Source: Siminovitchia terrae (GTDB lineage Bacteria > Bacillota > Bacilli > Bacillales > Bacillaceae_C). From it: a DNA stretch of 52,759 nucleotides. Below are positions 6,532 to 52,759 of this stretch, piece after piece. Below the pieces are notes generated by a model that was given only the letters and a program-made list of their open reading frames with translations, did not search any database and was not told where the DNA came from. The position numbers and the translations under genes were made by a program. Each line of letters begins with the position of its first letter. Within the stretch, counting starts at the first letter, position 1. Location of the stretch: NCBI RefSeq assembly GCF_003605405.2, contig NZ_QYTW02000030.1:11872-64630 (forward strand), written 5' to 3'.

Positions 6532-7437
6532 TCATACTCCTACAAGGAATAGGACATATGGAATCGTCAGCAAACTGACAATCGTCGTGATGAACGTTGT
6601 GAATGAAACTAGATCAGGCTCTGTATCAAATTGGATTGCCAGCAAAGTCGTATTGGCTGCGGCCGGCATGGACGCTTGGATGAAAAGTACGGCTTTGATC
6701 AAATCATCCATGGGCAAGAAATATAAAATAAGAAGAGCAATCAACGGTGACAATATCATTCGAATGCCAACAGTAGCTGAGACGAACCTGTAGGCGACTC
6801 GCTTTCTTTGCATGGCGGCCAGCTGCATTCCGAGTACAAGCATGACGGTCGGAATGGAGGCGTCTGCAACGAGTTCAACGGCATTCATAATGGTACCAGG
6901 CAGATGAATGGAAAGAAGCTGTAAAGCAAGACCAAGGATTGCTCCATAAATGACAGGCATCTTGATCACTTGCATGACAGCATCCCGAATCGATGCATTT
7001 TCTTTTCCACCAATCGACGCCACTAGGATTCCAATTGAGTTCATCAAAAATGACTGAAAAACCATCATGATGACCGCATAATCGAAGGCAACTGCCCCGA
7101 GGGCAAACAGTACGACTGGTGCTCCATAGTTTCCGCTGTTCATAAACGCTCCGCCCAGAATCATTGCCGAGAGCTTCTGCTTGTCCGATCGCATGAGCAA
7201 GCCCGTTATCCAAGTGACTATAATTAGAATGAACGATAAAAGACAACAAAATAGAAAGATATAAATATAGTCCATCGTGACTTCATTTGTATAAAAGGTA
7301 CGGAAGGCGAGAAATGGCGACATCAAATAAAGCGCCACTTTCGAAATGGATTTTATATCGAATCCGATGAGCTTTTGCCCAAGCCATCCTGCAAAAAATA
7401 TTAAAAAAACAGGTAGTACAATTAAAAGCAAGTCCAC
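6532..7437 (-). CDS. AEC-family (auxin efflux carrier-like) transporter
   Basis: Membrane protein of 301 aa with about ten hydrophobic helices in two halves. It has AEC-family features such as GGAFMNSGNYGAP in the middle and a C-terminal ASMPAAANTTLLA crossover-like segment. Family members move malate, other carboxylates or amino acids. I chose GTG at 7437 (VDLLLIVLPVF) because GGAG precedes it and it gives the normal family length; an extension to 7521 would add 28 polar residues. A GAGCCT/AGGCTC dyad overlaps the stop (6519-6533) but has no T-tract. Confidence 0.8.
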   Translation of the reverse strand: MDLLLIVLPVFLIFFAGWLGQKLIGFDIKSISKVALYLMSPFLAFRTFYTNEVTMDYIYIFLFCCLLSFILIIVTWITGLLMRSDKQKLSAMILGGAFMNSGNYGAPVVLFALGAVAFDYAVIMMVFQSFLMNSIGILVASIGGKENASIRDAVMQVIKMPVIYGAILGLALQLLSIHLPGTIMNAVELVADASIPTVMLVLGMQLAAMQRKRVAYRFVSATVGIRMILSPLIALLILYFLPMDDLIKAVLFIQASMPAAANTTLLAIQFDTEPDLVSFTTFITTIVSLLTIPYVLFLVGV

Positions 7438-7510
7438 GGGGCGTTCATCTCCATTTGTGTATCTTACTCTATCATACCAAATAGAGGCTAAGCAGATGGA
7501 CTGAGATTGT

Positions 7511-7544
7511 AAAAAAAACAAACCATCTATTAAGAGATGGTTTG
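7511..7544 (-). terminator. Terminator of the glnHPQ-like operon
   Basis: On the - strand AAACCATCT/AGATGGTTT forms a hairpin followed by GTTTTTTTT, just after the ATPase gene. Confidence 0.85.
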
Positions 7545-7559
7545 GACTTTGATAGAATA

Positions 7560-8282
7560 CTATAAAACTTTGCTCAAAAACGCCTTCGTCCTCTCGTTGT
7601 TCGGTGAGCCAAAAATTTGTTCAGGAGGTCCCTCTTCAACAAGGAGCCCCTGGTCTATGAACAATACGCGGTCCCCCATTTCCCTCGCAAATCCCATCTC
7701 ATGTGTTACAACCACCATGGTCATTCCATCCATTGCCAATTGTTTCATGACATCAAGGACTTCTTTGACCATTTCGGGGTCAAGGGCAGAGGTGGGTTCG
7801 TCAAATAGCATGACTTTTGGTCTCATCGCCAACGCTCTGGCAATGGCTACTCTTTGCATCTGACCTCCTGATAACTGCTCGGGATAGGCATTTGCTTTGT
7901 CTCCGAGACCGACCTTTTGTAGCAACTGATGCGCAAGCTCCTCGGCGTCACGAAGATTCATTTTCCTGATTTTTATCGGAGAAATTGTGATGTTATCGAG
8001 TACTGTCATGTGAGGAAAAAGATTGAACTGCTGAAAAACCATTCCCACTTCTTTCCTGATTTCATTTATATCTGTTTGGGGATCATTTATTTTGACGCCG
8101 TCAATATAAATGGAACCATCTGTGATTTCTTCCAATAGGTTGATACAGCGAAGGAAAGTGCTTTTTCCCGATCCGCTCGGCCCGATGACACAGATGACTT
8201 CTTTTTCATTCACTTTGTAATCGATCCCTTTTAAGACTTGCAGTTGTCCGAACGATTTATGAAGCCCTTGAATTTTAATCAT
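7560..8282 (-). CDS. glnQ: Polar amino-acid ABC transporter ATP-binding protein, GlnQ type
   Basis: ATPase of 240 aa with Walker A GPSGSGKS, signature LSGGQ, Walker [15 protein letters not shown] and the H-loop TTHEMGF-like VTHEMGF, typical of the glutamine/polar amino-acid (PAAT) subfamily. It energises import with the permease and binding protein upstream. The ATG overlaps the permease stop (ATGA at 8279-8282). It is the last gene of the operon. The exact amino acid cannot be read from the sequence. Confidence 0.9.
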
Positions 8283-12318: not shown

Positions 12319-13524
12319 TTAGTCAAAATCCAATACGCCATTCATCAGATTGGAAAACTTTTCTGCGTCTCTTTTTCTGACAGCTTCAGTTGTATGTAGA
12401 TAAACTTTTTTAGTGATATCATCATCGGAATGACCTAACCTTTCCATGATCCTTTCTAGGCTAACTCCCGCCTCAGATAATAAAGATGTATGTGTATGCC
12501 GTAGAGAGTGAGGGGTTAATGACTCGTTTAGATTTGCCAGTTTCAGTATTCTTTTCATTCTTTGCTGAATGATCTTTACATAAATAGGGTATCCGGGATT
12601 TGTACCGTTGTTTACAAATATAAACCCCTCATCCAAGTATTCCTTGCCAACAATTCGTTTTATTTCTTTGTTTCGTTCAATAACCGACTGTAAACAATTC
12701 ACAACAAGATTATCAATATCAATTATTCTTCTTGATGATATGGTTTTAGGGGTCACAAGCTTAAAGGATTTTATGTTATTGTTTGGGTTGTAATAAGTTT
12801 TAGTGATGGAGAGCAAATAACTTCCATCGTTATTTTTTATTAAGTCCGTCTCCTTTAACGGACAAAGCTCACCAATCCTTATCCCTGTATAGGCTAGGGT
12901 GACGAATATCTCAAAATCCAGATCCAATCCTTTTTCTTTGGCTGTTTTCAAAAATAAAGCCAAGTCCTCTTTTTCCATATATTTCGGTAACTCATAAAAA
13001 CTATCTAACTCCTCAATGGTTTGGGCTGCTTTAGGAATATAGGCAAATTCAGTCGGATCTTTCTTTATAACCTCTTTCTCCAATGCTTTTCTGAATATCA
13101 TCCTCCCAGTTCTATGTATGCCTGCCAATGTGTTCTTTGCAAACTGTCGATTCAACTTGCTTAAAGCTGTTTGATATTGCTCTTGAGTAATGTCGGCCAT
13201 CTTAATATTTTTAAAAAATGGCAGCAAATTATTAATTTCATGCCTTCTGATTCTAATGGTACCAGGTTTTACCCCTCTTTCTTCCTGATAAATGTTTATC
13301 CACAATTCACTAAAACTTTTGAAGGTAATGTGGATATCTTTCAAACTATTGCCTGCCTCAATTTCATTCTCCATATGCCTTGCTGCAGTTCTAGCCTCTC
13401 CGATGGTTTTAAATCCTCTCCTGGTAGTGTGCTTTCTCTTGCCTGTGGCTGGATCGATGCCAGTATAAATTTTAAACATATACCTTTCGCCGTTCTTTGT
13501 TTTATAGCTTTGAAAACTAGCCAC
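12319..13524 (-). CDS. int: Phage tyrosine-family integrase
   Basis: Site-specific recombinase of 401 aa. The N-terminus has the small DNA-binding domain of phage integrases (SYKTKNGERYMFKIYTGID), then a SAM-like core-binding domain, then the catalytic domain with Arg in TGIRIGEL, HSLRH for the H-x-x-R box, LGHS and the nucleophile Tyr in KKVYLHT. It integrates and excises the prophage. GTG start at 13524 preceded by AAGGAAGGAG. First gene next to the host junction. Confidence 0.95.
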   Translation of the reverse strand: MASFQSYKTKNGERYMFKIYTGIDPATGKRKHTTRRGFKTIGEARTAARHMENEIEAGNSLKDIHITFKSFSELWINIYQEERGVKPGTIRIRRHEINNLLPFFKNIKMADITQEQYQTALSKLNRQFAKNTLAGIHRTGRMIFRKALEKEVIKKDPTEFAYIPKAAQTIEELDSFYELPKYMEKEDLALFLKTAKEKGLDLDFEIFVTLAYTGIRIGELCPLKETDLIKNNDGSYLLSITKTYYNPNNNIKSFKLVTPKTISSRRIIDIDNLVVNCLQSVIERNKEIKRIVGKEYLDEGFIFVNNGTNPGYPIYVKIIQQRMKRILKLANLNESLTPHSLRHTHTSLLSEAGVSLERIMERLGHSDDDITKKVYLHTTEAVRKRDAEKFSNLMNGVLDFD

Positions 13525-40654: not shown

Positions 40655-41221
40655 GTGCGTCTTAATGATCCGTTGGTCACCTCTTTTGTTTATGAAGATG
40701 AAGAATATGCCATTGATTTGGCTTTTGATAATGTCCTTGACGTGTTTGACGTGCTTGACGACAAAGCCCTTAGAGATCACGAAAAAGTCAAAATAGCCCT
40801 TGAATTATTGCTAGGAGATCAACCTTACGAGGCAACAGTTGATTTATGGAATCACATTTATGAGTCATTTATCCATATCGAAAGCAAGCAACTAATTGAA
40901 TACGACAGAAAAGGAAATCCGATGCCTGTTAGAGAGGATGAAGACAAGAAATTCATCGACTTGAGCAAAGACACTGAATACATTTTCGCGTCATTCCAGC
41001 AAGCCTACAACATGAACTTGTTTGAGCAACAAGGGAAGCTTCATTGGCGTGAATTCAAGTCGTTATTGAATGGATTGCCAGCTGATACGATCATGCGACG
41101 CATCATCTCAATACGAATGTGGGAACCGTCTAAAGGTGAATCAACCGAATACAGGCAGGCTATGCGTAAGCTGCAAAAAATATATGCGCTTGACAACGAA
41201 GAGCCGGAGGAGGTGGATTGA
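40655..41221 (+). CDS. Tail assembly chaperone, second (Phage_Gp15)
   Basis: 188 aa. RLNDPLVTSFVYEDEEYAID and FDVLDDKALRDHEKVKIALELL match the Gp15 family of Gram-positive phages, equal in role to gpT. GTG at 40655 fits AGGTGA best; GTG at 40646, directly after the previous stop, is the alternative. Its stop overlaps the tape measure start. Confidence 0.82.
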   Translation: MRLNDPLVTSFVYEDEEYAIDLAFDNVLDVFDVLDDKALRDHEKVKIALELLLGDQPYEATVDLWNHIYESFIHIESKQLIEYDRKGNPMPVREDEDKKFIDLSKDTEYIFASFQQAYNMNLFEQQGKLHWREFKSLLNGLPADTIMRRIISIRMWEPSKGESTEYRQAMRKLQKIYALDNEEPEEVD

Positions 41222-44200
41222 TTGAGCGATGGCAGCATTAAGATATCTATCGAAGTAGATGGCAAGCAAATTGAAATAGCGTCAAAAGATATGGATGCAA
41301 TGAGTAGCGTTGCGAAGAAGCTAGGCACAGGCCTTAAATCTACAGAATCTAGTGTTGGTGGTTTAGGTAGTAGTAGTGCTAAGGCAAGCAAGGACGTAAA
41401 AAACGCCTCTGACTCTGTCGAAAACTTAGCCGATAGCGGTAATAAGGCAAGTAAAGACCTCAAAAACGCCGATAATGCAATAGATGGCGTTGCTGATAGT
41501 AGCGCAAACGCCACTAAAGACATAAAAGGTACATCTGATGGTATAGATGATTTAGCTGATAGCGGATCTAAAGCAGGCAAAGATTTGAAAGATGTTGACA
41601 GCGCAATAGACGGTGTTGCGGATAGTAGTGCTGACGCAAAAAAGGGTATTGGTGATACATCTGATAGTTTAGATGACTTATCAAGCAGTGCAAATGAAAC
41701 AAAAGTTGATTTGAAAAATGTAGATACTGCTATAGATGATTTGGCAGACAGTACACATGGAGCTAATAAAAATGTTTCCGACACTTCGGAAAACCTCGAT
41801 AAACTATCAAGTACCGCAAATGACGCATCTAACAAAATTGATGGCGCAAGTGGCGCGGTAGATGATCTAGGAGCTAAGGGTGGTAAAGCTGGTAGTGAAA
41901 TTAAGGATGTTGACGGAGCCGTTGAAGACTTAGGCAACAAGAGCTCAAAAGCGCAAAGTGATGTTAATGGTTTAGGTGATTCTGTAGACGGTTTGGGTAA
42001 TGAGGCAGACCATACAACAAAATCAACAGACGATTTAGGTAAAAGTACTGATGATGTAGGTAAAAAAACATCCGGTGCAACAGCACGCATAAAAGAATTA
42101 GCGGTATCAATTGGATTGGTGGCCATTGCATCAAAGGCGTTCGATGTTCTGAAATCTTCGCTAGATGACGCTATCGGAAGATTTGACACCTTGACAGGAT
42201 TCCCAGTTGTAATGGAGCGGATGGGTTTTAGTAGTGAACAGGCTCAAAAATCCATCTCTAAGCTATCAGACGGCATACAGGGCCTACCAACAACATTAAA
42301 CGGCATCGTGGCCAGCACTCAAAATATTGCCATTTTAACAGGTGACTTAGATAATGCAACGGACACGGCGTTGGCGCTAAATAATGCATTTTTAGCCAGT
42401 GGATCAAGCGCCGCTGATGCAGAGCGTGGTTTAGTGCAGTATGTTCAGATGCTTTCTAAAGGGGAAGTTGACTTGCAGTCGTGGAGGACGCTGCAAGAAA
42501 CGATGGGATATGCAATAAACAAGACAGCGGAAGCATTTGGTTATGCTGGCAAATCAGCACAAAACGATTTTTACGAAGCCTTGAAGTACGGGGCTGTTTC
42601 TTTTGAGGAGTTTAACGATAAGTTAATTGAGTTGAATAATGGCGTCGGTGGATTTGCCGAAATGGCATCTACTGGTAGCGCGGGTATTGCTACATCTTTT
42701 AGTAACTTGAAAAATGCGGTCATCGTCGGGGCTGCAAACATGATCACATCATTCAATGAGTTGTCGAAAGAAGTAACCGGAAATGACATCGCAAAGAATC
42801 TTGATGGGTTAAAGGTCGTTGTTGGCTCAACGTTCAAATTTATTGGATCGACTATCGAAGGTGTGGCGCCTGTTGTAAAAGGATTTGCATCAGCAGTACA
42901 AGCAACTACCCCGATAGTACAAGCCTTATCTCCTGCGATCATTGGACTAATGTCGGCTTATGCTGCACATGCAGTGATAACAAAAGTTACAGCCGCAGTA
43001 CAGGCATCTAACGCAGTTTTAAAAACAGCTATGGCATCTACGCAAGTCATGACTTTGTTGACGCAAAAACAGACTTTAACACAAATATTGTCAACTAATG
43101 CAACACTTGCCGATATAGTTGCTAAACGAGCCCAATTATCAACAATTAAGTTATCATCCTTAGCGATCGGCGTAATGACAGGTGCTGTATCTCTTTCCAC
43201 AGCTGCACAAGTTGTTGCGACTACAGCAACTTACGCATTGGGTGCCGCAGTTAAATTCTTAATGGGTCCAATCGGGTGGATAACGGCTGGAATTGGATTA
43301 TTAGTGGCGGGTACAATCGCTATCGTAAAGTGGTTCAAAAAAGCCACCGAAGAAGGCACTAGATTAAGTGGTGAAACGGAAAAGTTAGCGAGTTCGACTG
43401 ATGAATTAAGTAAGGCGACAGAAGAATCGGCTGCAGCCCATGAGAAGAACCAATCAAAGATCGAAACTAACGCAGAAGCTTATGCCCAATTAGCTGCTAA
43501 AGCAGAAGAAATGGCTTCAAGAGATAAATTATCAGGAGAAGAAAAGAAGACTCTAAACTCTTATATCGAAGAATTAAACAGAAATGTTAGTGGTTTAAAT
43601 CTTGTTTACGGAGAAGAATCAAAGGCGCTAAGCGCATCATCTGAACAAATATTAAACCGCATCAACCTCATGAAAGAAGAGGAAAAGCTACAATCAGCCC
43701 AAGAGAGACTCACGGAAATAATGAAAGAACAAATTGATATCCAGAAACAGTTAGAAGATATCAATTCTCTTAGGGAAGAATGGTCGCAAAAACTAGAAGA
43801 AGGAACAGTTAAAAGCGGAGAACATAAGAAAGCTCTTAAAGAACTGGAAGAACAAGAGACTACTCTTATGGAAGCTAGCAAGTTAGCTGGTGAAGAAAGA
43901 ATAAAGGTAGACCAGCAAATAAAAGAATCATCTGCAGCAGTAGCGGCAGCGGCTGAAAAAGACACAGGACGCCAATTATTGATGCTCGACGAATTATCCG
44001 AAGCTCAACAAAAAACCGTTGAAAATATGAAGGATACGTGGGAAAGCTACAAAGATTCAGCACTGGATATGTTCAATACGCTCAGCGAAAAATCCGAAGT
44101 ATCTGTAAGCGAAATGACCAAGAACCTCGAAGAAAACCAACGGATTATTACCAGTTGGTCTGAAAATATCGCAAAGCTAGCGGAACGTGGTGTGGACGAA

Positions 44201-46600
44201 GGTTTACTTAACACTTTGCGTGAGGCTGGTCCTGAATCAGCCGGGCATGTCAATGCGCTTGTTAAAGCGTCGGATAGCGAGCTTGAGAAGTTAAGCATAG
44301 CCTTTTCCAAAGGTGGAGACGTAGCAACGAAGGCGTTAAGTACATCACTTGGCATTGAAAATTCAGGAATCTTGGAATCCGTTGGGCATTTGGTGATGAA
44401 TACTGAACGTGCACTTACTGAAAGTATTGCTGGCGCAGGTTTCGAATCGATTGGCGGAGATGTGTCAAAAGGTCTAGCGCAAGGGATTGATGCGGGATCT
44501 AAAGAGCCTGCTAATGCATCTAAAAAAATGGCTGATGATACAACGAATGCAGCTAAGGATTCTCTTGGAGTACGCAGTCCATCGAGAGTGTTTAAAGAAA
44601 TCGGCACAAATATCACAGAAGGTCTAGTACTCGGTATCGATGGTGGATCATCTAAAGTCGTTCAAGCAATCCAAAGGATGTTTAAGTCCGTAGAGACTAA
44701 TTCCACAAACAGTTTTAAAACGATAACTAGAGGCTATGACAACGCCGTAAAACAGATTGAGACAACACTTGCTAAGTTGCCACAAGTCACTCAAAAGGCA
44801 ATGCAGAATATGACGAACAGGCTAAAAAGTGGGTCACAAGCGCAACTGAGCGCTATGAAATCTTTGTCCCAGAAATACGATCAGTCAGTTAAACAAATTG
44901 ACAAGTCGCTTAACAAACTTTCTAAAGTGGCTCAAAAAGCAATGTCTGACATGCTTAATAGAATAAAATCAGGCGGAAATGCACAGTTAAATACCATGAG
45001 AAGCCTAGCCAGAGCTATGCCGATTCCTTTTAACAGCTTACCTGGTCAAATGAGGTCAGTCGGGCAACATGCAATGTCTGGCTTAAACTCCGGTTTAAAT
45101 GCCGGCAGTGGTCATGTAATGTCGACAGCTAGGAGCATTGCAAACAGAGTAGCAAGCACGATGAGACAGGCTTTAAAGATACATTCTCCATCTCGAGTTA
45201 CGAAAGAAATCGGGAAGTTCGCTGGACAAGGGGTGGTTAAAGGTCTTGCATCCACAAAGAAAGGTGTAGCTGCTGCATCAAAAAATATAGCGAATGAAGC
45301 TATTAAAAATCTGCAGTTTAAGTATTCCACCAAAAGATTAAGCCCGGCAAATTACATCGCTGGATTGAGACAAATTCAACGCCAATACAAACTTACTGGT
45401 GATCAGTCCAGAAAACTGCAAAAGGAAATGTACCGGGCAAACCAAGCTATCATGAAGCAAGCTGAAGCACATAGCAAGTCGATTAAAAAGATCAATGACG
45501 GCGTTAAGAAGGCTGATAGCGCGTATCTAAAAAAGGTTAAGTCCATTAACAGTAATCTTGCTAAAGACATCAAGAAAGCGCAGGATGATTACAAAAATCA
45601 GCTTTCCAATCTCACTAAGTCCTTATACAACCAAACAGGCTTGTTCGATAAAGTTAAGGTCAAAAGAGTTGACGCAAACAAGCTACTCAAAAATTTAAAA
45701 GACCAAAACGCACAATTCAAGCAATTTAAGTCCGATATTGCAAAGATCCAAAAAACCGGAGTATCCAAAAACTTTGTAAATGAACTCAGGGAAATGGGTG
45801 TCGATGCTGCAGCAGAGATCAATGCTATTGCTAACATGCCGAAATCAATGTTGAAAGATTATGTGAAAGCTTGGTCTGAAAAACATAAACTAGCCAAAGA
45901 TGAAGCTACTAAGCAAATGGCTGACGAAAAGAAGAATATGCAAAAGCAAATTAAATCTTTGACAGCGGCAGCTAAAAAGGAACTGACCAAAGCTAAAGCT
46001 GATTGGCGAGCCAGTTTAACTAAGTTGAGTGAGGAAACTAAAAAACTCGGAAACTTCAAAAACAGCGGAAAGGTCCTGGGTAAAAATACTGTACAGGGTC
46101 TAATCAAAGGATTAAAGACCATGAAAGGGCCATTGGCTAACGAGGCTAGAGCACTTGCTAAGACCATTGAAAAAGAAGTCAAGAAGGCCCTTAAAATCAA
46201 ATCTCCCTCTCAACTGATGAGGGACGAAGTCGGAAAGATGATTACAGCAGGAATTGCGGTAGGAATTGATAAAGACGCCAAGACGGTTTATAAAGCTTTG
46301 GATAACCTGTCTCAAGGTATGATTTTAACTTCGACCCCTGAAGCTGCACTAGGAACATCAAGAATGGGTTACGCAAATTCCAGTAATCACGTTATTGATG
46401 CCTTACGAAGCTTTAAAATGCCACCTGGAAACCAACAGAATGATGACAGTGAGACTAAATCTCTCCTAAGTCGCATCGTGAAAAACACTGAAAATATCAG
46501 TGGTGATCTATACATTGGTCCAGAAAAGGTGGGTGGATGGATAGATCGAAATCAAGCTAAGAGGACTGGTCTGTATGGAAGGAGGATCGCTATTGACTAG
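41222..46600 (+). CDS. Tape measure protein
   Basis: 1792 aa; sets tail length and carries DNA-ejection functions. Residues about 43-294 are twelve 21-residue repeats. Next is the tape measure domain (FPVVMERMGFSSEQAQKSI.. with QMLSKGEVDLQSWRTLQET), hydrophobic segments around 570-720, charged coiled coils (720-950), and later copies of the capsid-pore type motif GVRSPSRVFKEIG/KIHSPSRVTKEIG/KIKSPSQLMRDEVG. TTG start after GGAGGAGGTGG. No cell-wall hydrolase domain is obvious to me. Confidence 0.9.
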   Translation: MSDGSIKISIEVDGKQIEIASKDMDAMSSVAKKLGTGLKSTESSVGGLGSSSAKASKDVKNASDSVENLADSGNKASKDLKNADNAIDGVADSSANATKDIKGTSDGIDDLADSGSKAGKDLKDVDSAIDGVADSSADAKKGIGDTSDSLDDLSSSANETKVDLKNVDTAIDDLADSTHGANKNVSDTSENLDKLSSTANDASNKIDGASGAVDDLGAKGGKAGSEIKDVDGAVEDLGNKSSKAQSDVNGLGDSVDGLGNEADHTTKSTDDLGKSTDDVGKKTSGATARIKELAVSIGLVAIASKAFDVLKSSLDDAIGRFDTLTGFPVVMERMGFSSEQAQKSISKLSDGIQGLPTTLNGIVASTQNIAILTGDLDNATDTALALNNAFLASGSSAADAERGLVQYVQMLSKGEVDLQSWRTLQETMGYAINKTAEAFGYAGKSAQNDFYEALKYGAVSFEEFNDKLIELNNGVGGFAEMASTGSAGIATSFSNLKNAVIVGAANMITSFNELSKEVTGNDIAKNLDGLKVVVGSTFKFIGSTIEGVAPVVKGFASAVQATTPIVQALSPAIIGLMSAYAAHAVITKVTAAVQASNAVLKTAMASTQVMTLLTQKQTLTQILSTNATLADIVAKRAQLSTIKLSSLAIGVMTGAVSLSTAAQVVATTATYALGAAVKFLMGPIGWITAGIGLLVAGTIAIVKWFKKATEEGTRLSGETEKLASSTDELSKATEESAAAHEKNQSKIETNAEAYAQLAAKAEEMASRDKLSGEEKKTLNSYIEELNRNVSGLNLVYGEESKALSASSEQILNRINLMKEEEKLQSAQERLTEIMKEQIDIQKQLEDINSLREEWSQKLEEGTVKSGEHKKALKELEEQETTLMEASKLAGEERIKVDQQIKESSAAVAAAAEKDTGRQLLMLDELSEAQQKTVENMKDTWESYKDSALDMFNTLSEKSEVSVSEMTKNLEENQRIITSWSENIAKLAERGVDEGLLNTLREAGPESAGHVNALVKASDSELEKLSIAFSKGGDVATKALSTSLGIENSGILESVGHLVMNTERALTESIAGAGFESIGGDVSKGLAQGIDAGSKEPANASKKMADDTTNAAKDSLGVRSPSRVFKEIGTNITEGLVLGIDGGSSKVVQAIQRMFKSVETNSTNSFKTITRGYDNAVKQIETTLAKLPQVTQKAMQNMTNRLKSGSQAQLSAMKSLSQKYDQSVKQIDKSLNKLSKVAQKAMSDMLNRIKSGGNAQLNTMRSLARAMPIPFNSLPGQMRSVGQHAMSGLNSGLNAGSGHVMSTARSIANRVASTMRQALKIHSPSRVTKEIGKFAGQGVVKGLASTKKGVAAASKNIANEAIKNLQFKYSTKRLSPANYIAGLRQIQRQYKLTGDQSRKLQKEMYRANQAIMKQAEAHSKSIKKINDGVKKADSAYLKKVKSINSNLAKDIKKAQDDYKNQLSNLTKSLYNQTGLFDKVKVKRVDANKLLKNLKDQNAQFKQFKSDIAKIQKTGVSKNFVNELREMGVDAAAEINAIANMPKSMLKDYVKAWSEKHKLAKDEATKQMADEKKNMQKQIKSLTAAAKKELTKAKADWRASLTKLSEETKKLGNFKNSGKVLGKNTVQGLIKGLKTMKGPLANEARALAKTIEKEVKKALKIKSPSQLMRDEVGKMITAGIAVGIDKDAKTVYKALDNLSQGMILTSTPEAALGTSRMGYANSSNHVIDALRSFKMPPGNQQNDDSETKSLLSRIVKNTENISGDLYIGPEKVGGWIDRNQAKRTGLYGRRIAID
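41348..42103 (+). repeat. Twelve 63-base tandem units in the tape measure gene
   Basis: Each unit encodes 21 residues on the plan xxVxxLxxSxxxAxxxLxxAx, with hydrophobic residues spaced 3-4-3-4, that is three heptads. Two unit types alternate in part (xGIDDLADSGSKAGKDLKDVD and xAIDGVADSSA..). The DNA copies have diverged, so recent slippage is not evident. Confidence 0.75.
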
Positions 46601-47300
46601 ATTCGGAATTACATTTGATGGCAAACACAGCTATAGAGACTATGGATTAACTGTTGCAGATAAAGTTATAGGCAATCCATCGAAAATCAAAGTCAAAGAA
46701 CGCGTTCCCTTCTCCAATGAGATATATGATTTCAGCGGGATATACAGCGGTCAGGAATACGAGGAACGCCAACTAACCTATGTATTCAATGTTAAGGATT
46801 ATGATAAGATCGATCTTTCAATAAAAAAAGTCGAAGTTCTTAATTGGGTGATGCGGCCTAATAGAAAGGTAAAGCTGATTGATGATTATATCCCAGGATA
46901 CTACTTTATTGCCGAGGTTGAGGAAGATCCTGACTTTGGCGAATTGAGGTACCACGGTACATTAACAGTCAACTTTACAGCATACCCTTTCAAAATTGGT
47001 GAACTCGAAGAAGGCAATGACTTATGGGATCCGTTTAACTTTCTGTTGGACTATGCACAAGCCACAGAATTTGATATACGAGGCAGTCAAAACATTACGC
47101 TGTATAATCCAGGAACTAACACAAGTAAACCAACTATAAAGGCCACAGCACCAATGCAGATCATTAAAGATGGTAAGACGTTTAACGTGCCTGTCGGAGA
47201 GTCGCAATCATATGATTTCTTGTTGACAGGGATTGAAAACAAAATGACGGTAAGAGGAAACGGCAAAATCTCCTTTCACTTCCGAAAGGAGCTGATCTGA
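46593..47300 (+). CDS. Distal tail protein (Dit)
   Basis: 235 aa. TRFGITFDGKHSYRDYGLTV, YEERQLTYVFNV and the C-terminal galectin-like end (NKMTVRGNGKISFHFR) match Dit of siphophages, the hub joining tail tube and baseplate. TTG at 46593 after AAGGAGGA; an in-frame ATG at 46575 lies before the ribosome site and overlaps the tape measure gene more. Confidence 0.88.
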   Translation: MTRFGITFDGKHSYRDYGLTVADKVIGNPSKIKVKERVPFSNEIYDFSGIYSGQEYEERQLTYVFNVKDYDKIDLSIKKVEVLNWVMRPNRKVKLIDDYIPGYYFIAEVEEDPDFGELRYHGTLTVNFTAYPFKIGELEEGNDLWDPFNFLLDYAQATEFDIRGSQNITLYNPGTNTSKPTIKATAPMQIIKDGKTFNVPVGESQSYDFLLTGIENKMTVRGNGKISFHFRKELI

Positions 47301-48829
47301 TGTATAAAGTCACCATCATTAATGGCGGAAAGGAAACTGTCATTCATCATCCGTCCTTTAACGATTTAAAGGTACAGGAAGGGCAGATTAACAAAGGTAT
47401 CAATGTTTCTGACAGTTTTAGCTTTACAATCATGCCAAATAACCCTGGCTACAACATAATACGTCCACTCAAAACTCTAATCAATGTTTTCAACATGAAA
47501 ACAGGAGCATATGAGTTTGAGGGGCGTATTTTAATGCCCACAGAGTCCATGAGCGATTCCGGAGTATTTGCTAAGGCGTATGTCTGCGAAAGTGAATTAG
47601 GATACTTAAATGACAGCGCACAACGTCACGGAGAATACCATGACATAACTGTCCGACGGTTCTTCGAAATTATGATTGCCAACCATAATGCTGACATTGC
47701 TAATGATGATATTGATAAAACCTTTAGAGTTGGGGAAGTGACGGTCACCAATACCACAGACAACATTTATCGATATCTTGGCTACGAATCTACTTTCGAC
47801 ACCATCGATGATAAATTGATCAGCCGTCTAGGCGGAGAGTTGCGGGTCCGAAAGGAAAATGGTGTCCGTTATATTGATTATCTTGATAGTATTGGGGCCA
47901 CAAAACAAACAGAAATAAGGCTTGCGAAGAATCTGAAAAGCATCACTAAAGAAGCTGATCCTGATGAAGTAATCACAAGATTAGTGCCTTTAGGAGAACG
48001 CATTGAATCAGATTATGAAGATGCAACGGACGCTAGCGAAGCTAGACTTACAATTGAATCGGTGAATAACGGAAAAGAATATATCGAGGATACGGAAGCC
48101 AAGTCAGTTTTTGGTGTGATAACCAAAAGCCAAGCATGGGATGATATTACAATACCATCAAACCTATTAAGGACCGGTCAACAATTTTTGAAAGAAAACA
48201 ACCGAGTAAAAGTAAAATATTCAATCACTGCCCTCGATCTCTCATTAATTGGACTTGATACAGACAGTTTTGAGGTTGGGAACTATTATCCTGTCATCAA
48301 CCCAGTAATGGGCATTAACGAGCATTTACGAGTTATTGCTAAGACAATTGACATCATTGAACCAGACAATAATGACCTGACCATCGGTGATAGATTTCCC
48401 ACAGCCTCACAGTATCAATATGAGGCTAATAAAGCACAAAAAGAGGTTGTGGGCCTCAAATCAACAGTGTCTAGGCAGAACACTAAGATTGGTACACTAT
48501 CTATCAATCTTAGTACCACGAAAGATGAACTGGAAGCAACTAAACAGCAGTTGCAAAACTTTGAACAGGTCACTGACCAAGACATAGAATCTATCACCAA
48601 CTCAATTACTACCATGTTGGACACTATCCAGCAATTGGAACAGATTGTCACAGATCTGGTATCTGTAGTATCACCGGAAGAAATCCAGCAGATGAAAGAT
48701 GATATACAGAACAACTCAACAAACATCAAAACGAATACTGATGCAATTTTTGATATTAATAATCAAATCAGTTCAATTAATATAGAAATAGAAAATATAA
48801 AACAAAGATTAGATAATGGAGGGTTGTGA
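47300..48829 (+). CDS. Tail-associated protein (Tal, prophage endopeptidase tail family)
   Basis: 509 aa. The first 370 residues follow the gp27-like Tal fold of the prophage tail endopeptidase family (DSFSFTIMPNNPGYN.., YESTFDTIDDKLISRLGGEL, VITRLVPLGERI). The last 130 are coiled coil (TTKDELEATKQQLQNFEQV.., NQISSINIEIENIKQRL) and probably link to the receptor-binding protein. No separate hydrolase domain is seen. Start overlaps the Dit stop by one base. Confidence 0.87.
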   Translation: MYKVTIINGGKETVIHHPSFNDLKVQEGQINKGINVSDSFSFTIMPNNPGYNIIRPLKTLINVFNMKTGAYEFEGRILMPTESMSDSGVFAKAYVCESELGYLNDSAQRHGEYHDITVRRFFEIMIANHNADIANDDIDKTFRVGEVTVTNTTDNIYRYLGYESTFDTIDDKLISRLGGELRVRKENGVRYIDYLDSIGATKQTEIRLAKNLKSITKEADPDEVITRLVPLGERIESDYEDATDASEARLTIESVNNGKEYIEDTEAKSVFGVITKSQAWDDITIPSNLLRTGQQFLKENNRVKVKYSITALDLSLIGLDTDSFEVGNYYPVINPVMGINEHLRVIAKTIDIIEPDNNDLTIGDRFPTASQYQYEANKAQKEVVGLKSTVSRQNTKIGTLSINLSTTKDELEATKQQLQNFEQVTDQDIESITNSITTMLDTIQQLEQIVTDLVSVVSPEEIQQMKDDIQNNSTNIKTNTDAIFDINNQISSINIEIENIKQRLDNGGL

Positions 48830-48830
48830 T

Positions 48831-50897
48831 ATGGCTGATATAAGCAATGAACTAATTCAGATCAAAAGTGCTATATACGGCAAAGATGTACGCGGGTCTA
48901 TTCATGATGGGATTGATAAGATTAACCGAGAAACAGAAAAGACAACTGGTATTGCGAAAGATACAGAACGTAGGCAAACATCCCTTGAACAACAATTTGA
49001 TGAACAGATTCAAAATATGACGTTAGATGACCCATCCTCTGCCGAATTGGTTGCTGCAAGAACAAATACAGTAACTGGAGAAACACTTACTACAATAGGT
49101 AGAAGATTAGATGAAGAATACGAAAAGTTCTCAAGTGAGATTACCAACATATCCGGTGTTACTGGAAAAACACCATATGATTATTTATCGTTGGTCAGCG
49201 GATTAGGGACACCTGATGAAGATTGGACTCTTGCTATACAAACGTTGATAGACACCGGAAGACTACACAGGTTACCACCAGGTAGATATAGAGTAACAGA
49301 GGAATTGAAAATGAGACAGAACCGATCGTCACTAGAAGGTGCTGGTAACACACTAGTATGGGATAAATCAAAAGACACAGTCATATTCTATGATGGCCCA
49401 ACAGATCCGAACAAGACTGTTTTGCGTGTATCAGGTAAACCAATAGGAGAAACATCGGACATCCAACTTTCAAATATCCATTTAAAAAACATTGTCTTAG
49501 ATGGAAACCAAAAGGCAGGATATGGCTTATATACCAATTATGTGACTAATGACAGCACAGTTGAAAATGTGACAGCTGTGAATTGTATTAACCATGGTGT
49601 GTTTATCGCAAAATCGTGGTACGCTTCATACCGTAATATCATCGCGGCGTTTAACCTTGGTTGTGGTATAACGATCGGGAAAGGATTTGAGGGATGGGCG
49701 GGTTCTGATCGTCAAGTAAATTCTGTTTATTTTTCAAATTTAAGAGGATTTGATAACGGGAAAGATTTAGCGTTTGATATGGAAACTAATAGAGAATGGG
49801 GTTATGGTATCGGATTGTATGATGGCTATAATCTTATGTTACGAGGAATAACGTGTGAACGAAATGACGGAGCTGGCCTTGTATTTAACAATAAAGCTAC
49901 TGGTGCAGGTGTTCAAGGTTCCTATTTTGAACGAAATGGGCAAAGGGATTCAGGTGCAAATGGAATGGATCGAGCCATTATTTATGTGGGCAATTCTGGA
50001 GGTGGCGGCCATTATCTATTGGATACATTTCTTGTGGGAGAACAATCACATGAGCGTCATCAAACAATTTTTTTAACAGGTGGAAGGCCGAGAACAGAAC
50101 TGGTAATTGATAGAGTATCATTCGGTAAGTTAAACGCTGAATGGAGTGATTATAAGCTTCATAATGCCTATTTCGGTATGGCTGCCTATATTAAAGGACA
50201 CGCACCCAAAAATACAGTAATAGTAGATTACGGGCAGGATACATTATATGTCCGTTCGAACGGTTCGGATAATAATGACGGCAGATCATCATCAACTGCA
50301 TTTGCGACACTTCAAAAAGCAATTGAAATGGCTGAGTATTTTGAGCGAGTGACAAAAATAAACTGTGCGGGTCTTGTGTCCGGAGAAATTACCTTGGACC
50401 TTTCCAAAATCCGAAAAGAACTACGGATTGATGGTGTGGGCACAGCCAAAGTGATTAATGCATCAGCCCATAAAGGGTTAGAGATTAAAAATAACGCATT
50501 TAAAGTCACGATTGCTAACTTTGGTGAGATTTCAAGGATAATTGCAGAAAACGCAGATTTGAATATCTTAGGGTCAACATTGGCTCTAAAAGATAATTCC
50601 GCTACCCCATGCCTTAATGCAATTGACTCTAAAATTAACATGAAAACAGTAATGGTAGACGGTAAAGGTAGTTCGGCGCCAGTTAAAAATGGAATCAGGA
50701 GCAATGGGTCAGAAATAAGAATGATGGATTGTAATACATCAGGACTTGATAATTATTTCAGCATAGAGAATAACGGAATAGTGATGGCTGATCGTTATAT
50801 GGCCGGATTTAACTATATTGACTTTAGAGATGGTTCCGGTCATGTAATTGGCGGAAACAAAATGATTACAAGTGCAGGAGCTATTACATTTCAATAG
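48831..50897 (+). CDS. Receptor-binding tail protein with beta-helix
   Basis: 688 aa. The N-terminus IQIKSAIYGKDVRGSIHDGI is the usual tail-attachment start of Gram-positive phage receptor-binding proteins, followed by a helical stalk. From about residue 140 the pattern is a right-handed beta-helix (SNIHLKNIVLDGN, STVENVTAVNCINHGVFI, LRGITCERNDGAGLVF), as in pectate-lyase-like tail spikes that bind or cut polysaccharide. A smaller helix domain follows after DTLYVRSNGSDNNDGRSS. ATG at 48831 after GGAGGG. Confidence 0.87.
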   Translation: MADISNELIQIKSAIYGKDVRGSIHDGIDKINRETEKTTGIAKDTERRQTSLEQQFDEQIQNMTLDDPSSAELVAARTNTVTGETLTTIGRRLDEEYEKFSSEITNISGVTGKTPYDYLSLVSGLGTPDEDWTLAIQTLIDTGRLHRLPPGRYRVTEELKMRQNRSSLEGAGNTLVWDKSKDTVIFYDGPTDPNKTVLRVSGKPIGETSDIQLSNIHLKNIVLDGNQKAGYGLYTNYVTNDSTVENVTAVNCINHGVFIAKSWYASYRNIIAAFNLGCGITIGKGFEGWAGSDRQVNSVYFSNLRGFDNGKDLAFDMETNREWGYGIGLYDGYNLMLRGITCERNDGAGLVFNNKATGAGVQGSYFERNGQRDSGANGMDRAIIYVGNSGGGGHYLLDTFLVGEQSHERHQTIFLTGGRPRTELVIDRVSFGKLNAEWSDYKLHNAYFGMAAYIKGHAPKNTVIVDYGQDTLYVRSNGSDNNDGRSSSTAFATLQKAIEMAEYFERVTKINCAGLVSGEITLDLSKIRKELRIDGVGTAKVINASAHKGLEIKNNAFKVTIANFGEISRIIAENADLNILGSTLALKDNSATPCLNAIDSKINMKTVMVDGKGSSAPVKNGIRSNGSEIRMMDCNTSGLDNYFSIENNGIVMADRYMAGFNYIDFRDGSGHVIGGNKMITSAGAITFQ

Positions 50898-50908
50898 GAG
50901 GTGCAGCT

Positions 50909-51178
50909 TTGAGAAAGGTTGAAAAAGAGTTCCCAGTTGCCCGTTTAATTCATGAAACAAGGACAAGTATTGGCGAAAAAATCTTAGCTGTGAATGAGAA
51001 TTGGGAGGAACAACAAGCAGAAATTTTTACAGTTTTCTTGTCTATTGATGACGAACAATTGTCTCAACAAAGCTACGTGGCACGGGGATCAGCTTTTGAT
51101 TTGTTGATGTCAAACACAGGTAAGAATAGAGAAGATCAAATTTGGCAGGTGGTAGATATGATTCAAGCTAACCAATAA
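50909..51178 (+). CDS. 89-aa tail-region protein, unknown
   Basis: TTG start after AGGAGGTG. Acidic, helical (RLIHETRTSIGEKILAVNEN, DQIWQVVDMIQANQ). By position a small baseplate or tail-fibre accessory. No family recognised. Confidence 0.6.
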   Translation: MRKVEKEFPVARLIHETRTSIGEKILAVNENWEEQQAEIFTVFLSIDDEQLSQQSYVARGSAFDLLMSNTGKNREDQIWQVVDMIQANQ

Positions 51179-51198
51179 AAATAATATTGAGAAACAAA

Positions 51199-51227
51199 TT
51201 GATAAAATCTTTCTCCTTTCCTATAAT
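51199..51227 (+). promoter_or_regulatory. Sigma-A promoter of the moron gene
   Basis: TTGATA, 17 bases, TATAAT, ending 23 bases before the start codon of the polymerase gene. It is in the middle of the late operon and should be read by host RNA polymerase in the lysogen. Confidence 0.85.
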
Positions 51228-51250
51228 TAAAGAGATTTGGAGGAGGATTT

Positions 51251-52522
51251 ATGACTAGGTTAATCAAATTTTTATTATCAAAAGAGTTTTTCTTTGTGTT
51301 ATTTTTAACATCTGGGTACTTTAAGTCGTCAGAGTCAAAAATAGATATAACTTTTGTGTGTTTATTGGTTACTGTAGTACTGGCTTTAAAAGACATGCCT
51401 AATAAGATGGAAAAGGTAACATTTAGGTTAATAGTTGTTCTTGCTTTTATATATGCGCTCATATTAATAGGTTTTTTATATTCGCCTAGTGCATCTTATG
51501 CTATTGATAAACTGATAAAATTCACAGTTCTAACCATCCCTGCTTTCTTGATTGGAATTATGATTTTGCAGTCAGAGGAATCGGTAAAAAGATTCTTAAA
51601 ATCTATCATTGCTGTTGGGGTTACGATGTCAGTATTCGCTATTTATCTCTTTATGAGTAACAATGCTGGTATCGGTTTTATCGGATTGGGTGACGGTAAT
51701 TACCTAGGGCTAGGAAGAGTAACCGGATTGACGTTCCTTATATTAATGATTTGGATCACTTTTTCTCGAATGCCGCGCATAAAAGCGTTACTGACCATAG
51801 CTGTGGCATTGCTTGTCTTTGCTGCTTTATCTATATCAGGAGCTAGGATGCCGTTACTTGCTGCATTAGCAGTTGGCGCTCTAATAGTCCTACGTTCAGT
51901 TCGGATAAAAAACGGTGTCGTACTTGTAAGTAGCGGATTTAAATATCTTTTCTCTTTGTTAATTGTTGGAGTAGCGTTTGTGTCTTGGTTGTTTTCCAAA
52001 GGTTATTTAGACACAATTATATACAGAGTGTCTGTATTGTTCACCGAAAAACAGGGAGGAGTATCTGCTGAAGGTAGGCTTGATAGATACAACGAGGCTT
52101 ACGAAATGTTTGTTAGCAGTCCGATTTTTGGTAAGGGATTAGGGAGCTTCACTATATTTTATAATAATGGGGTAGATATAAACGACTATCCTCATAATAT
52201 ATTCCTAGAATTTCTGTCTGAATTAGGGTTAGTTGGGTTAATAGGTTTTTTAGTTTTAATCTTTTTATGTTTAACCCCTATTTTAAAGAGTGGCTTTAAA
52301 GGTATGAAGTTGGAGCAATCAGCTTTATTGGCATGCTTTTTATTCTTGTTATTAAACGCAAACACAACCGGTGATATAAACGACAACAGAATGATGTTTG
52401 CCTTTCTAGCAATCATTTTTAAAGTTGGTACTATCAAGAGAAAAGAATTTGAAACTGTCAGATCGGTTAAAGTGCCCACTGAGCAAAGCGGTGGTCGCAT
52501 TAAAGGAAGACAGCTGGCATGA
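51251..52522 (+). CDS. Wzy/O-antigen-ligase-like polysaccharide polymerase (moron)
   Basis: 423 aa with about 11 to 12 hydrophobic helices. The large loop GRLDRYNEAYEMFVSSPIFG..GLGSF and DYPHNIFLEFLSELGLVGL carries the Wzy_C family's R, G-x-G and PHN..L-E-x-G signature. Such membrane enzymes polymerise or ligate lipid-linked glycan repeats on the outer face. ATG after GGAGGAGG. Own promoter upstream and terminator downstream, no role in phage assembly expected. Likely changes the host surface glycan; target unknown. AT content looks higher than that of neighbouring tail genes. Confidence 0.85.
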   Translation: MTRLIKFLLSKEFFFVLFLTSGYFKSSESKIDITFVCLLVTVVLALKDMPNKMEKVTFRLIVVLAFIYALILIGFLYSPSASYAIDKLIKFTVLTIPAFLIGIMILQSEESVKRFLKSIIAVGVTMSVFAIYLFMSNNAGIGFIGLGDGNYLGLGRVTGLTFLILMIWITFSRMPRIKALLTIAVALLVFAALSISGARMPLLAALAVGALIVLRSVRIKNGVVLVSSGFKYLFSLLIVGVAFVSWLFSKGYLDTIIYRVSVLFTEKQGGVSAEGRLDRYNEAYEMFVSSPIFGKGLGSFTIFYNNGVDINDYPHNIFLEFLSELGLVGLIGFLVLIFLCLTPILKSGFKGMKLEQSALLACFLFLLLNANTTGDINDNRMMFAFLAIIFKVGTIKRKEFETVRSVKVPTEQSGGRIKGRQLA

Positions 52523-52571
52523 GGTTAACCTAAATCAAAGTATCTTTGCAAATAAGTCATTTTATTGTTTT

Positions 52572-52600
52572 AAAAGAGTCCTTTTGGGCTCTTTTTATTT
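52572..52600 (+). terminator. Terminator of the moron unit
   Basis: AAAAGAGTCC-TTTT-GGGCTCTTTT hairpin followed by TATTT, 50 bases after the polymerase stop. Confidence 0.85.
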
Positions 52601-52620
52601 TGCAGAAAAGGAGAGGGAGT

Positions 52621-52759
52621 ATGGAAACTATATTTAAATCAGTTGTCGCTGTCATCGGGGCGATCATTACATTCTTATTGGGAGGTTGGTCGCCTTTGTT
52701 ACAGGTGCTAGTTATTTTTATTGTCATGGATTATGTATTGGGATTTTTGGTTGCAGCAA
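52621..52759 (+). CDS. Phage holin (partial, runs off the window)
   Basis: The visible 46 residues hold two hydrophobic segments (SVVAVIGAIITFLLGG and PLLQVLVIFIVMDYVLGFLV), the start pattern of the phage_holin_4 (TcdE/Cph1) family with its VIFIVMDYVLG motif. It would make the membrane hole that releases the endolysin, expected just past the window. ATG after AGGAGAGGGAGT. Confidence 0.8.
   Translation, partial: METIFKSVVAVIGAIITFLLGGWSPLLQVLVIFIVMDYVLGFLVAA

Follow-up and report, generated by a model that had tools for sequence, protein, structure and literature searches.

Conversion of the O-antigen serotype by a phage polymerase is textbook knowledge for Gram-negative bacteria, and for the phages D3 and epsilon15 the portion of the source available here presents it as experimentally established (PMC4815439). 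According to that portion, Iap and Wzy-beta make D3 lysogens resistant to superinfection, and the epsilon15 polymerase carries a Wzy_C domain (PMC4815439). The D3 genes follow one another as tail protein orf27, iap, O-acetylase, wzy-beta, HNH and endolysin, and those of epsilon15 as tail spike, then wzy and the alpha-polymerase inhibitor gene, both in the opposite orientation, then membrane protein, holin and endolysin. The protein family phrog_19842, whose match to D3 Wzy-beta (L114, 23421-24581) spans the whole length, carries the label 'DNA, RNA and nucleotide metabolism: polymerase', which looks like an artefact of the term 'polymerase'. A further Wzy_C moron, in the Variovorax phage VarioGold, is placed behind the spanins and not beside the spike in the accessible part of its description (PMC9658991), a position that counts against any universal association of spike and wzy. 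For Gram-positive phages, titles and abstract openings, with thin coverage of subscription journals, yielded no polymerase-type conversion; the words 'Gram-positive', 'teichoic' and 'Bacillus' are absent from the main text, as accessible, of a review on superinfection exclusion (PMC11436027), and the accessible parts of PMC10821137, PMC12599335 and PMC13141910 hold nothing on phage Wzy.

The window, that is, the whole stretch of 52,759 nucleotides analysed here, covers positions 11872-64630 of a 64630-base contig from a 5.3 Mb genome and contains a prophage whose left end, with a phage integrase gene (12319-13524, minus strand), adjoins groEL. From the integrase onwards, the order is repressors, terminase, portal, tape measure (41222-46600, plus strand, as are all features that follow), distal tail protein Dit (46575-47300) and a Tal-type tail protein of the Prophage_tail family PF06605 (47300-48829), both identified by Pfam/profile search, a presumed receptor-binding protein or tail spike of 693 aa (48816-50897), an 89-aa ORF (50909-51178), the wzy-like gene and a holin (52621-52759; PF05105, phrog_199). 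The contig ends inside the holin gene, so that neither the remaining lysis genes nor the right-hand attachment site can be seen; the IMG/VR contig of the same prophage likewise breaks off within or just behind the holin region. In the translation of the N-terminal part of the tape measure (41222-42100) a degenerate unit of ~30 residues is repeated; DNA tandem repeats were found nowhere in 41000-52759, this stretch included, nor RNA elements in 46000-52759.

The receptor-binding identity of the 693-aa protein was assigned by tblastn alone: it matches 30 phage records at 26-30% identity, and several of these carry the annotation antireceptor or tail spike. The same protein gave zero Pfam matches, its sole match in the viral scan was its own contig, and its single-sequence fold model (pLDDT 36.9) is unusable, its beta-helix remaining putative. 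The 89-aa ORF matches phrog_22445 (unknown function) weakly, and its hydropathy profile contains no membrane segment. The first-pass annotation had set the polymerase gene between the receptor-binding protein and the holin; the presumed spike and the PF05105 holin bear out these flanks, but the 89-aa ORF had been overlooked.

The wzy-like gene (51251-52522) opens with an ATG, is preceded by a ribosome-binding site read from the sequence as GGAGGAGG (51239-51246) and by a predicted sigma-A-type promoter TTGATA-17-TATAAT (51199-51227; 11/12 consensus positions, weighted score below), and is followed by a predicted intrinsic terminator (52572-52595; 10 pairs then TATTTT, -12.6 kcal/mol). Sites of either kind arising by chance were considered: in 46000-52759, 23 promoter-like sites were observed against a shuffled mean of 23.0, and 3 terminator-like sites against a shuffled mean of 4.3. 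Site numbers thus stay at shuffle level, so that for the promoter only quality and place are informative, and for the terminator place and not number; quality and place were tested instead, and the explanation by chance was set aside. The wzy promoter is the best of the 23 sites, and none of 300 dinucleotide shuffles reaches the weighted sigma-A-type score of the 130 nt 5' of wzy (p ~0.003, the smallest value reachable in a test with 300 shuffles), nor does any of 14 control genes from this late region. GC content is 0.356 versus 0.408, the lowest of the late region, none of 94 equal-length windows being as low. A moron anatomy, with predicted promoter and terminator of its own inside the late genes and a deviant GC content, is therefore well supported as far as sequence features go; the first-pass annotation had described it from the promoter, the terminator and the position. 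The coordinates and the likeness to a polymerase or O-antigen ligase that it gave are likewise upheld.

An HMM search for Wzy_C, which that annotation had proposed as a check, recovered Wzy_C (PF04932) at 61.5 bits against a cut-off of 31.7 (E 1e-16). No other Pfam family exceeded its own cut-off, Lycopene_cyc (below its cut-off) being the only further family at E up to 0.1, and the product was without match in PHROGs, NCBIfam and PADLOC, whose anti-phage defence models also returned 0 families for the 89-aa ORF. The 423-aa product has nine hydropathy segments, and its all-helical model, built from a 28-sequence alignment, reaches pLDDT 87.5 and pTM 0.88. Foldseek against the PDB placed WaaL (7tpg) on top (E 3.9e-7, TM 0.59/0.61, ~13% identity), followed by FtsW (E 0.0016) and RodA (E 0.0033). 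The profile of the same alignment also ranked WaaL first among PDB sequences (E 8.5e-12), with the oligosaccharyltransferase 9rmk second (E 1.9e-7). In the profile match, Arg199, Arg276 and His315 align with the Arg, Arg and His of WaaL that we take to be its active-site residues; across the 28 sequences His315 and Arg276 are invariant and Arg199 is conserved in at least 90%. The product can thus be securely assigned, from sequence and model, to the polytopic GT-C-type membrane enzymes of the Wzy_C superfamily. Polymerase and ligase are indistinguishable at the level of sequence, and the context of the relatives favours a Wzy. WaaL ligates O-antigen to lipid A core, and Gram-positive cells have no lipid A core, which makes a polymerase the likelier role. 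A fold search in BFVD gave one good match, the uncharacterised protein A0A3G2KG04 (E 1.7e-4) of the actinobacterial Arthrobacter phage Faja.

Relatives were searched with the Wzy protein alone, its neighbours not being used. In IMG/VR, seven contigs were obtained (the window's own, L015, L016, L101, L103, L104 and L105), the gene lying in the tail module in 7/7; the Wzy proteins of L021, L104, L105 and L098 used as queries added no further phage relatives. The window protein had no match in INPHARED, and five other phage Wzy queries retrieved ten distinct records there. Three of these are annotated, those of Geobacillus virus E2 (L097; two accessions) and of Halomonas phage YPHTV-1 (L098), all with wzy in the tail module. 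None of the seven unannotated records was counted as phage: the five that were opened show bacterial neighbours, the other two being OR849951 and OR849084. In MT837375, MT835880, OR844989, OR847250 and PQ520113 (L112, L113, L116, L117, L118), Wzy stands among bacterial-looking genes, likely host DNA. Among genome contigs 179 relatives were found, and phage marker profiles on the best 80 of these 179 located two in prophages, those of Metabacillus kandeliae (L021) and Gracilibacillus dipsosauri (L022), both in the tail module. The other high-scoring genome loci that were read (L003-L005, L013, L017-L019, L031) turned out to be polysaccharide clusters. In a Halobacillus locus (L020), an apparent giant ORF of tandem epimerases next to wzy proved to be an artefact of 5421 masked N, and this locus was counted as non-phage.

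Phage or prophage wzy loci consequently total 11, and what is new here is that ten Wzy_C genes besides that of the window lie in phage or prophage tail modules, each of them at a presumed receptor-binding gene or adjoining one. The first-pass annotation had called serotype conversion by such a gene in a Bacillales prophage unusual; given the ten other cases, the gene is no isolated instance, and that of E2 had previously received the annotation 'putative O-antigen polymerase'. All ten Bacillota-type phage Wzy proteins scanned against PHROGs (that of the window and nine others) were without match, so that routine phage annotation misses these genes.

A Tal gene was recognised in 9/11 loci. In seven of these nine (L015, L016, L022, L101, L103, L097, L098) the order is presumed receptor-binding gene, wzy, Tal, and in the remaining two (the window and L105) the presumed receptor-binding gene follows Tal and precedes wzy. 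No Tal was recognised in L104 and L021; wzy comes behind a 630-aa protein that matches a beta-helix weakly in the former, and behind a 508-aa protein unmatched in Pfam in the latter. The space between spike and wzy is occupied by one small ORF in the window and by one opposite-strand GDSL gene in L022, and in L097 and L103 wzy lies on the strand opposite to the late or tail genes. That these neighbours bind receptors is in part a presumption. In 4/11 they have a Pfam match exceeding the cut-off: BNR in L015, GDSL lipase in L022 and pectate-lyase types in L097 and L101. The neighbours of L103, L104 and L105 have weak Pfam matches below cut-off, and that of L021 has none; the neighbour of L016 (74% identical to that of L015) and that of L098 (annotated zinc carboxypeptidase) were not Pfam-scanned.

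Several loci show features of their own. Behind wzy, L098 has an acyltransferase-3 gene, and L105 (9181-10052, plus strand) has a hexapeptide acyltransferase together with an ORF of 87 aa that shows three hydropathy segments, is unmatched in Pfam and is a candidate polymerase inhibitor or holin-like protein. In L022 a GDSL/SGNH-type gene (7068-7835, minus strand), opposite to the tail genes, sits between the GDSL tail protein and wzy; it is a second possible moron and might alter glycan acylation. In L103 (2823-4048, plus strand) wzy is spread over two overlapping ORFs, either a decayed gene or a sequencing error. The host of YPHTV-1 is given as Halomonas; its GC content of 0.35 and its Prophage_tail-type Tal resemble the Bacillota loci, and the label may be wrong.

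The cassette features of the window gene were then compared with those of the other loci. In 7/11 loci no control gene of the locus reaches the weighted sigma-A-type score upstream of wzy (100 control genes overall), and in L022, L103, L097 and L098 one to four control genes score at least as high as the wzy upstream site; for L101 and L105 the starts were placed a few codons inside the listed ORFs. Taken singly, 3/11 upstream regions beat their own shuffles at p < 0.05, the Fisher combined p being 1e-4. Terminator-like hairpins (-5 kcal/mol or better, no more than 110 nt from the stop) follow 7/11 wzy genes versus 21/103 control genes (p 0.004) when the scan starts after the stop codon. A rescan admitting hairpins that overlap the stop codon, which added 35 nt for wzy and controls alike and was made post hoc once the overlap in L022 had been spotted by eye, gave 11/11 versus 33/103 (p 1.2e-5), nine of the 11 wzy hairpins reaching -9.7 or better and those of L105 (-5.0) and L098 (-5.9) being weak. 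GC content of wzy is below that of the flanks in 11/11 loci, and in nine no equal-length flank window is as low (L015, 1/48; L105, 25/71), a supporting and not a decisive feature because hydrophobic proteins tend to low GC. For L015/L016, the only close pair among these wzy genes, dN/dS is 0.147/0.96 (NG86) or 0.163/0.633 (YN00), that is, ~0.15 or 0.26, and the two genes are kept under purifying selection.

As regards origin, the window Wzy shares 18-37% identity with eight other phage Wzy proteins in an alignment, and the closest non-phage sequences among the best 80 of 179 are those of Ureibacillus sinduriensis and Sporosarcina (L017 and L018; 36% and 33%). A quick tree of 89 rows joins the window, L015, L016, L021, L022, L101 and L103 in a set of 13 rows (support 96), six of them non-phage, and places L097, L098, L104 and L105 elsewhere. 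The phage label requires at least nine changes on this tree, which has many long branches and whose starred branches alone are compatible with one origin. The mixing of phage proteins with chromosomal capsule polymerases points to repeated capture; a single origin of the phage genes is formally possible, but several captures from capsule clusters are likely and make the simplest reading.

Lipid-linked repeat units, candidate substrates for a foreign polymerase, should be present in this host. It has two other Wzy_C genes, each belonging to a polysaccharide cluster that also encodes glycosyltransferases and a Wzx-type flippase; the proteins of these two genes share 20% identity with the Wzy of the prophage. 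Three further Prophage_tail places make the host a polylysogen, for which exclusion would matter.

Considering these observations, the gene probably, if far from surely, encodes a lysogenic-conversion polymerase that remodels a Wzx/Wzy-made surface polysaccharide of the host and hinders adsorption in the manner of D3 and epsilon15. It would be transcribed from the otherwise silent prophage via its own predicted promoter, ending at its own predicted terminator, and its product would take undecaprenyl-linked repeat units flipped by a host Wzx/Wzy cluster and join them by a different linkage, or to a different chain length, from that produced by the host Wzy. The spike encoded by the adjacent gene and those of related phages would then bind the changed polysaccharide less well, leading to superinfection exclusion, and released phage would be kept from sticking to sister lysogens. 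With the lock-changer (wzy) beside the key (spike gene), the pair would stay together in tail-module exchange. This exclusion mechanism draws on the two experimental analogues and on the recurrence of wzy beside the receptor-binding gene. The reading as a whole is supported by (i) the WaaL-like fold, the promoter and terminator and the low GC, (ii) the D3/epsilon15 slot and the ten further loci, (iii) the opposite-strand wzy genes of L097 and L103, the acyltransferase-type genes and the purifying selection in L015/L016, and (iv) the host's own Wzx/Wzy clusters with Wzy proteins only 20% identical. Against it, host and prophage polymerases would compete, as no inhibitor is visible within 50801-52759; the capsule could be modified for reasons unrelated to phages; and four of the 11 loci do not have the best promoter of their locus at wzy, the hairpins of L105 and L098 are weak, and VarioGold carries its gene elsewhere.

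The best-surviving alternative, though an unlikely one, keeps the conversion gene and changes its beneficiary: the enzyme would serve the host by adding or thickening a capsule or biofilm matrix, with no role in exclusion, and the spike neighbourhood would be just a place that tolerates inserts. The Wzy_C family does come mainly from capsule and exopolysaccharide clusters, and the slot between tail and lysis genes is a usual place for morons; however, in 7/9 Tal-bearing loci wzy lies between the presumed receptor-binding gene and Tal, inside the tail block and not at its end. Insert tolerance was gauged on 40 control prophage tail loci, some of them cut by contig ends, where no ORF of at least 180 codons with at least four hydropathy segments was found within 4 kb of the tail genes, ORFs read as tape measures (partly profile-checked) being set aside; other membrane proteins of this kind are thus seen in 0/40, against the idea of a generally permissive site. 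Of 397 genomes of the order, 14 contain a relative (E 1e-20 or better), and tail genes adjoin this relative in two of them (this genome and Gracilibacillus; for the others a flank of 1.5 kb was seen). In 199 genomes of the order, 75 Prophage_tail places occur in 53 genomes, and at least 2/75 (the window and Gracilibacillus) have Wzy_C within 5 kb, as compared by eye among the matches listed, E to about 2e-14. The cargo is therefore rare, and membrane enzymes are not usual inserts there.

A quite improbable alternative is that the product is a membrane ligase or oligosaccharyltransferase that glycosylates phage tail proteins or a host protein and does not polymerise a polysaccharide. The GT-C superfamily includes ligases and oligosaccharyltransferases, 9rmk being the second profile match, and the wzy genes lie inside tail modules. 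Nonetheless, Wzy_C is the sole Pfam family above cut-off in the protein. PglL/PilO-type O-oligosaccharyltransferases have specific additional domains, PglL_A and Wzy_C_2, and both are absent from the product in the Pfam scan at E up to 0.1. Glycosylation of the virion would moreover need late co-expression with the tail genes, which the wzy genes of L097 and L103 oppose in strand, and the nearest non-phage relatives lie in polysaccharide clusters beside glycosyltransferases and flippases. That the gene is a passenger without effect, a captured capsule gene silent or substrate-less in its host, could be suggested by its rarity (at least 2/75 places) and by the split frame of L103, but is highly improbable given a 423-aa frame that is unbroken and has its promoter, ribosome site and terminator, the conserved catalytic columns, the purifying selection in L015/L016 and the recurrence beside spike genes.

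Returning to a conversion polymerase acting in exclusion, a broader proposal may tentatively be made, with doubts outweighing confidence at present: temperate phages of Bacillota might share a recurrent lock-and-key cassette in which a surface-polysaccharide polymerase with its own promoter and terminator has come from capsule clusters, by several independent captures, to occupy the gap beside the receptor-binding gene, the two genes travelling together in tail-module recombination as a Gram-positive counterpart of D3 and epsilon15 that acts on capsule or wall polysaccharide, here without a visible inhibitor. If this were true, prophages would be a source of capsule diversity in Gram-positive bacteria, phage resistance would arise with the host's own capsule cluster intact, and the linkage altered by Wzy should be the linkage recognised by the neighbouring spike, so pointing to the receptor.

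Compared with known proteins and systems, the chromosomal capsule/EPS Wzy proteins of L017 and L018 differ from that of the window in lying in polysaccharide clusters with no phage genes in the marker search. WaaL (7tpg), the best solved-structure match by fold and profile, aligns in its Arg, Arg and His, with the overall identity of only ~13% setting it apart. Geobacillus virus E2 offers a Gram-positive temperate phage in which ORF19, the 'putative O-antigen polymerase', carries Wzy_C (67 bits) and is flanked by the genes for a pectate-lyase-type tail protein and for Tal; unlike the window gene it opposes the tail genes, it is 21% identical to the window Wzy, and its function is putative, taken from the annotation. 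In D3, the conversion unit stands between tail protein orf27 and the endolysin, a likeness to the window on which the first-pass annotation had rightly drawn, but it has three components (iap, O-acetylase and wzy-beta), and Wzy-beta falls below the Wzy_C cut-off (21.9 bits), with 29% identity to the window protein over 116 columns (E 3e-4). The D3 O-acetylase is paralleled by the acyltransferase-type genes behind wzy in L098 and L105, whereas the window has no such partner. No polymerase inhibitor was found within 50801-52759, where, among the other ORFs of at least 28 codons, the holin frame alone shows a hydropathy segment, and the window gene was not filed as a D3-type unit because no inhibitor partner is visible nearby. 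Closer still is epsilon15, although its host is Gram-negative with an O-antigen, its wzy and inhibitor genes oppose the late operon, a 66-aa inhibitor gene adjoins its wzy, and its Wzy matches that of the window in BLASTP over 53 columns (E 0.026): like the prophage studied here, it is a temperate phage, and the gene for its Wzy_C protein (40 bits) comes immediately after the tail spike gene and ahead of those for holin and endolysin.
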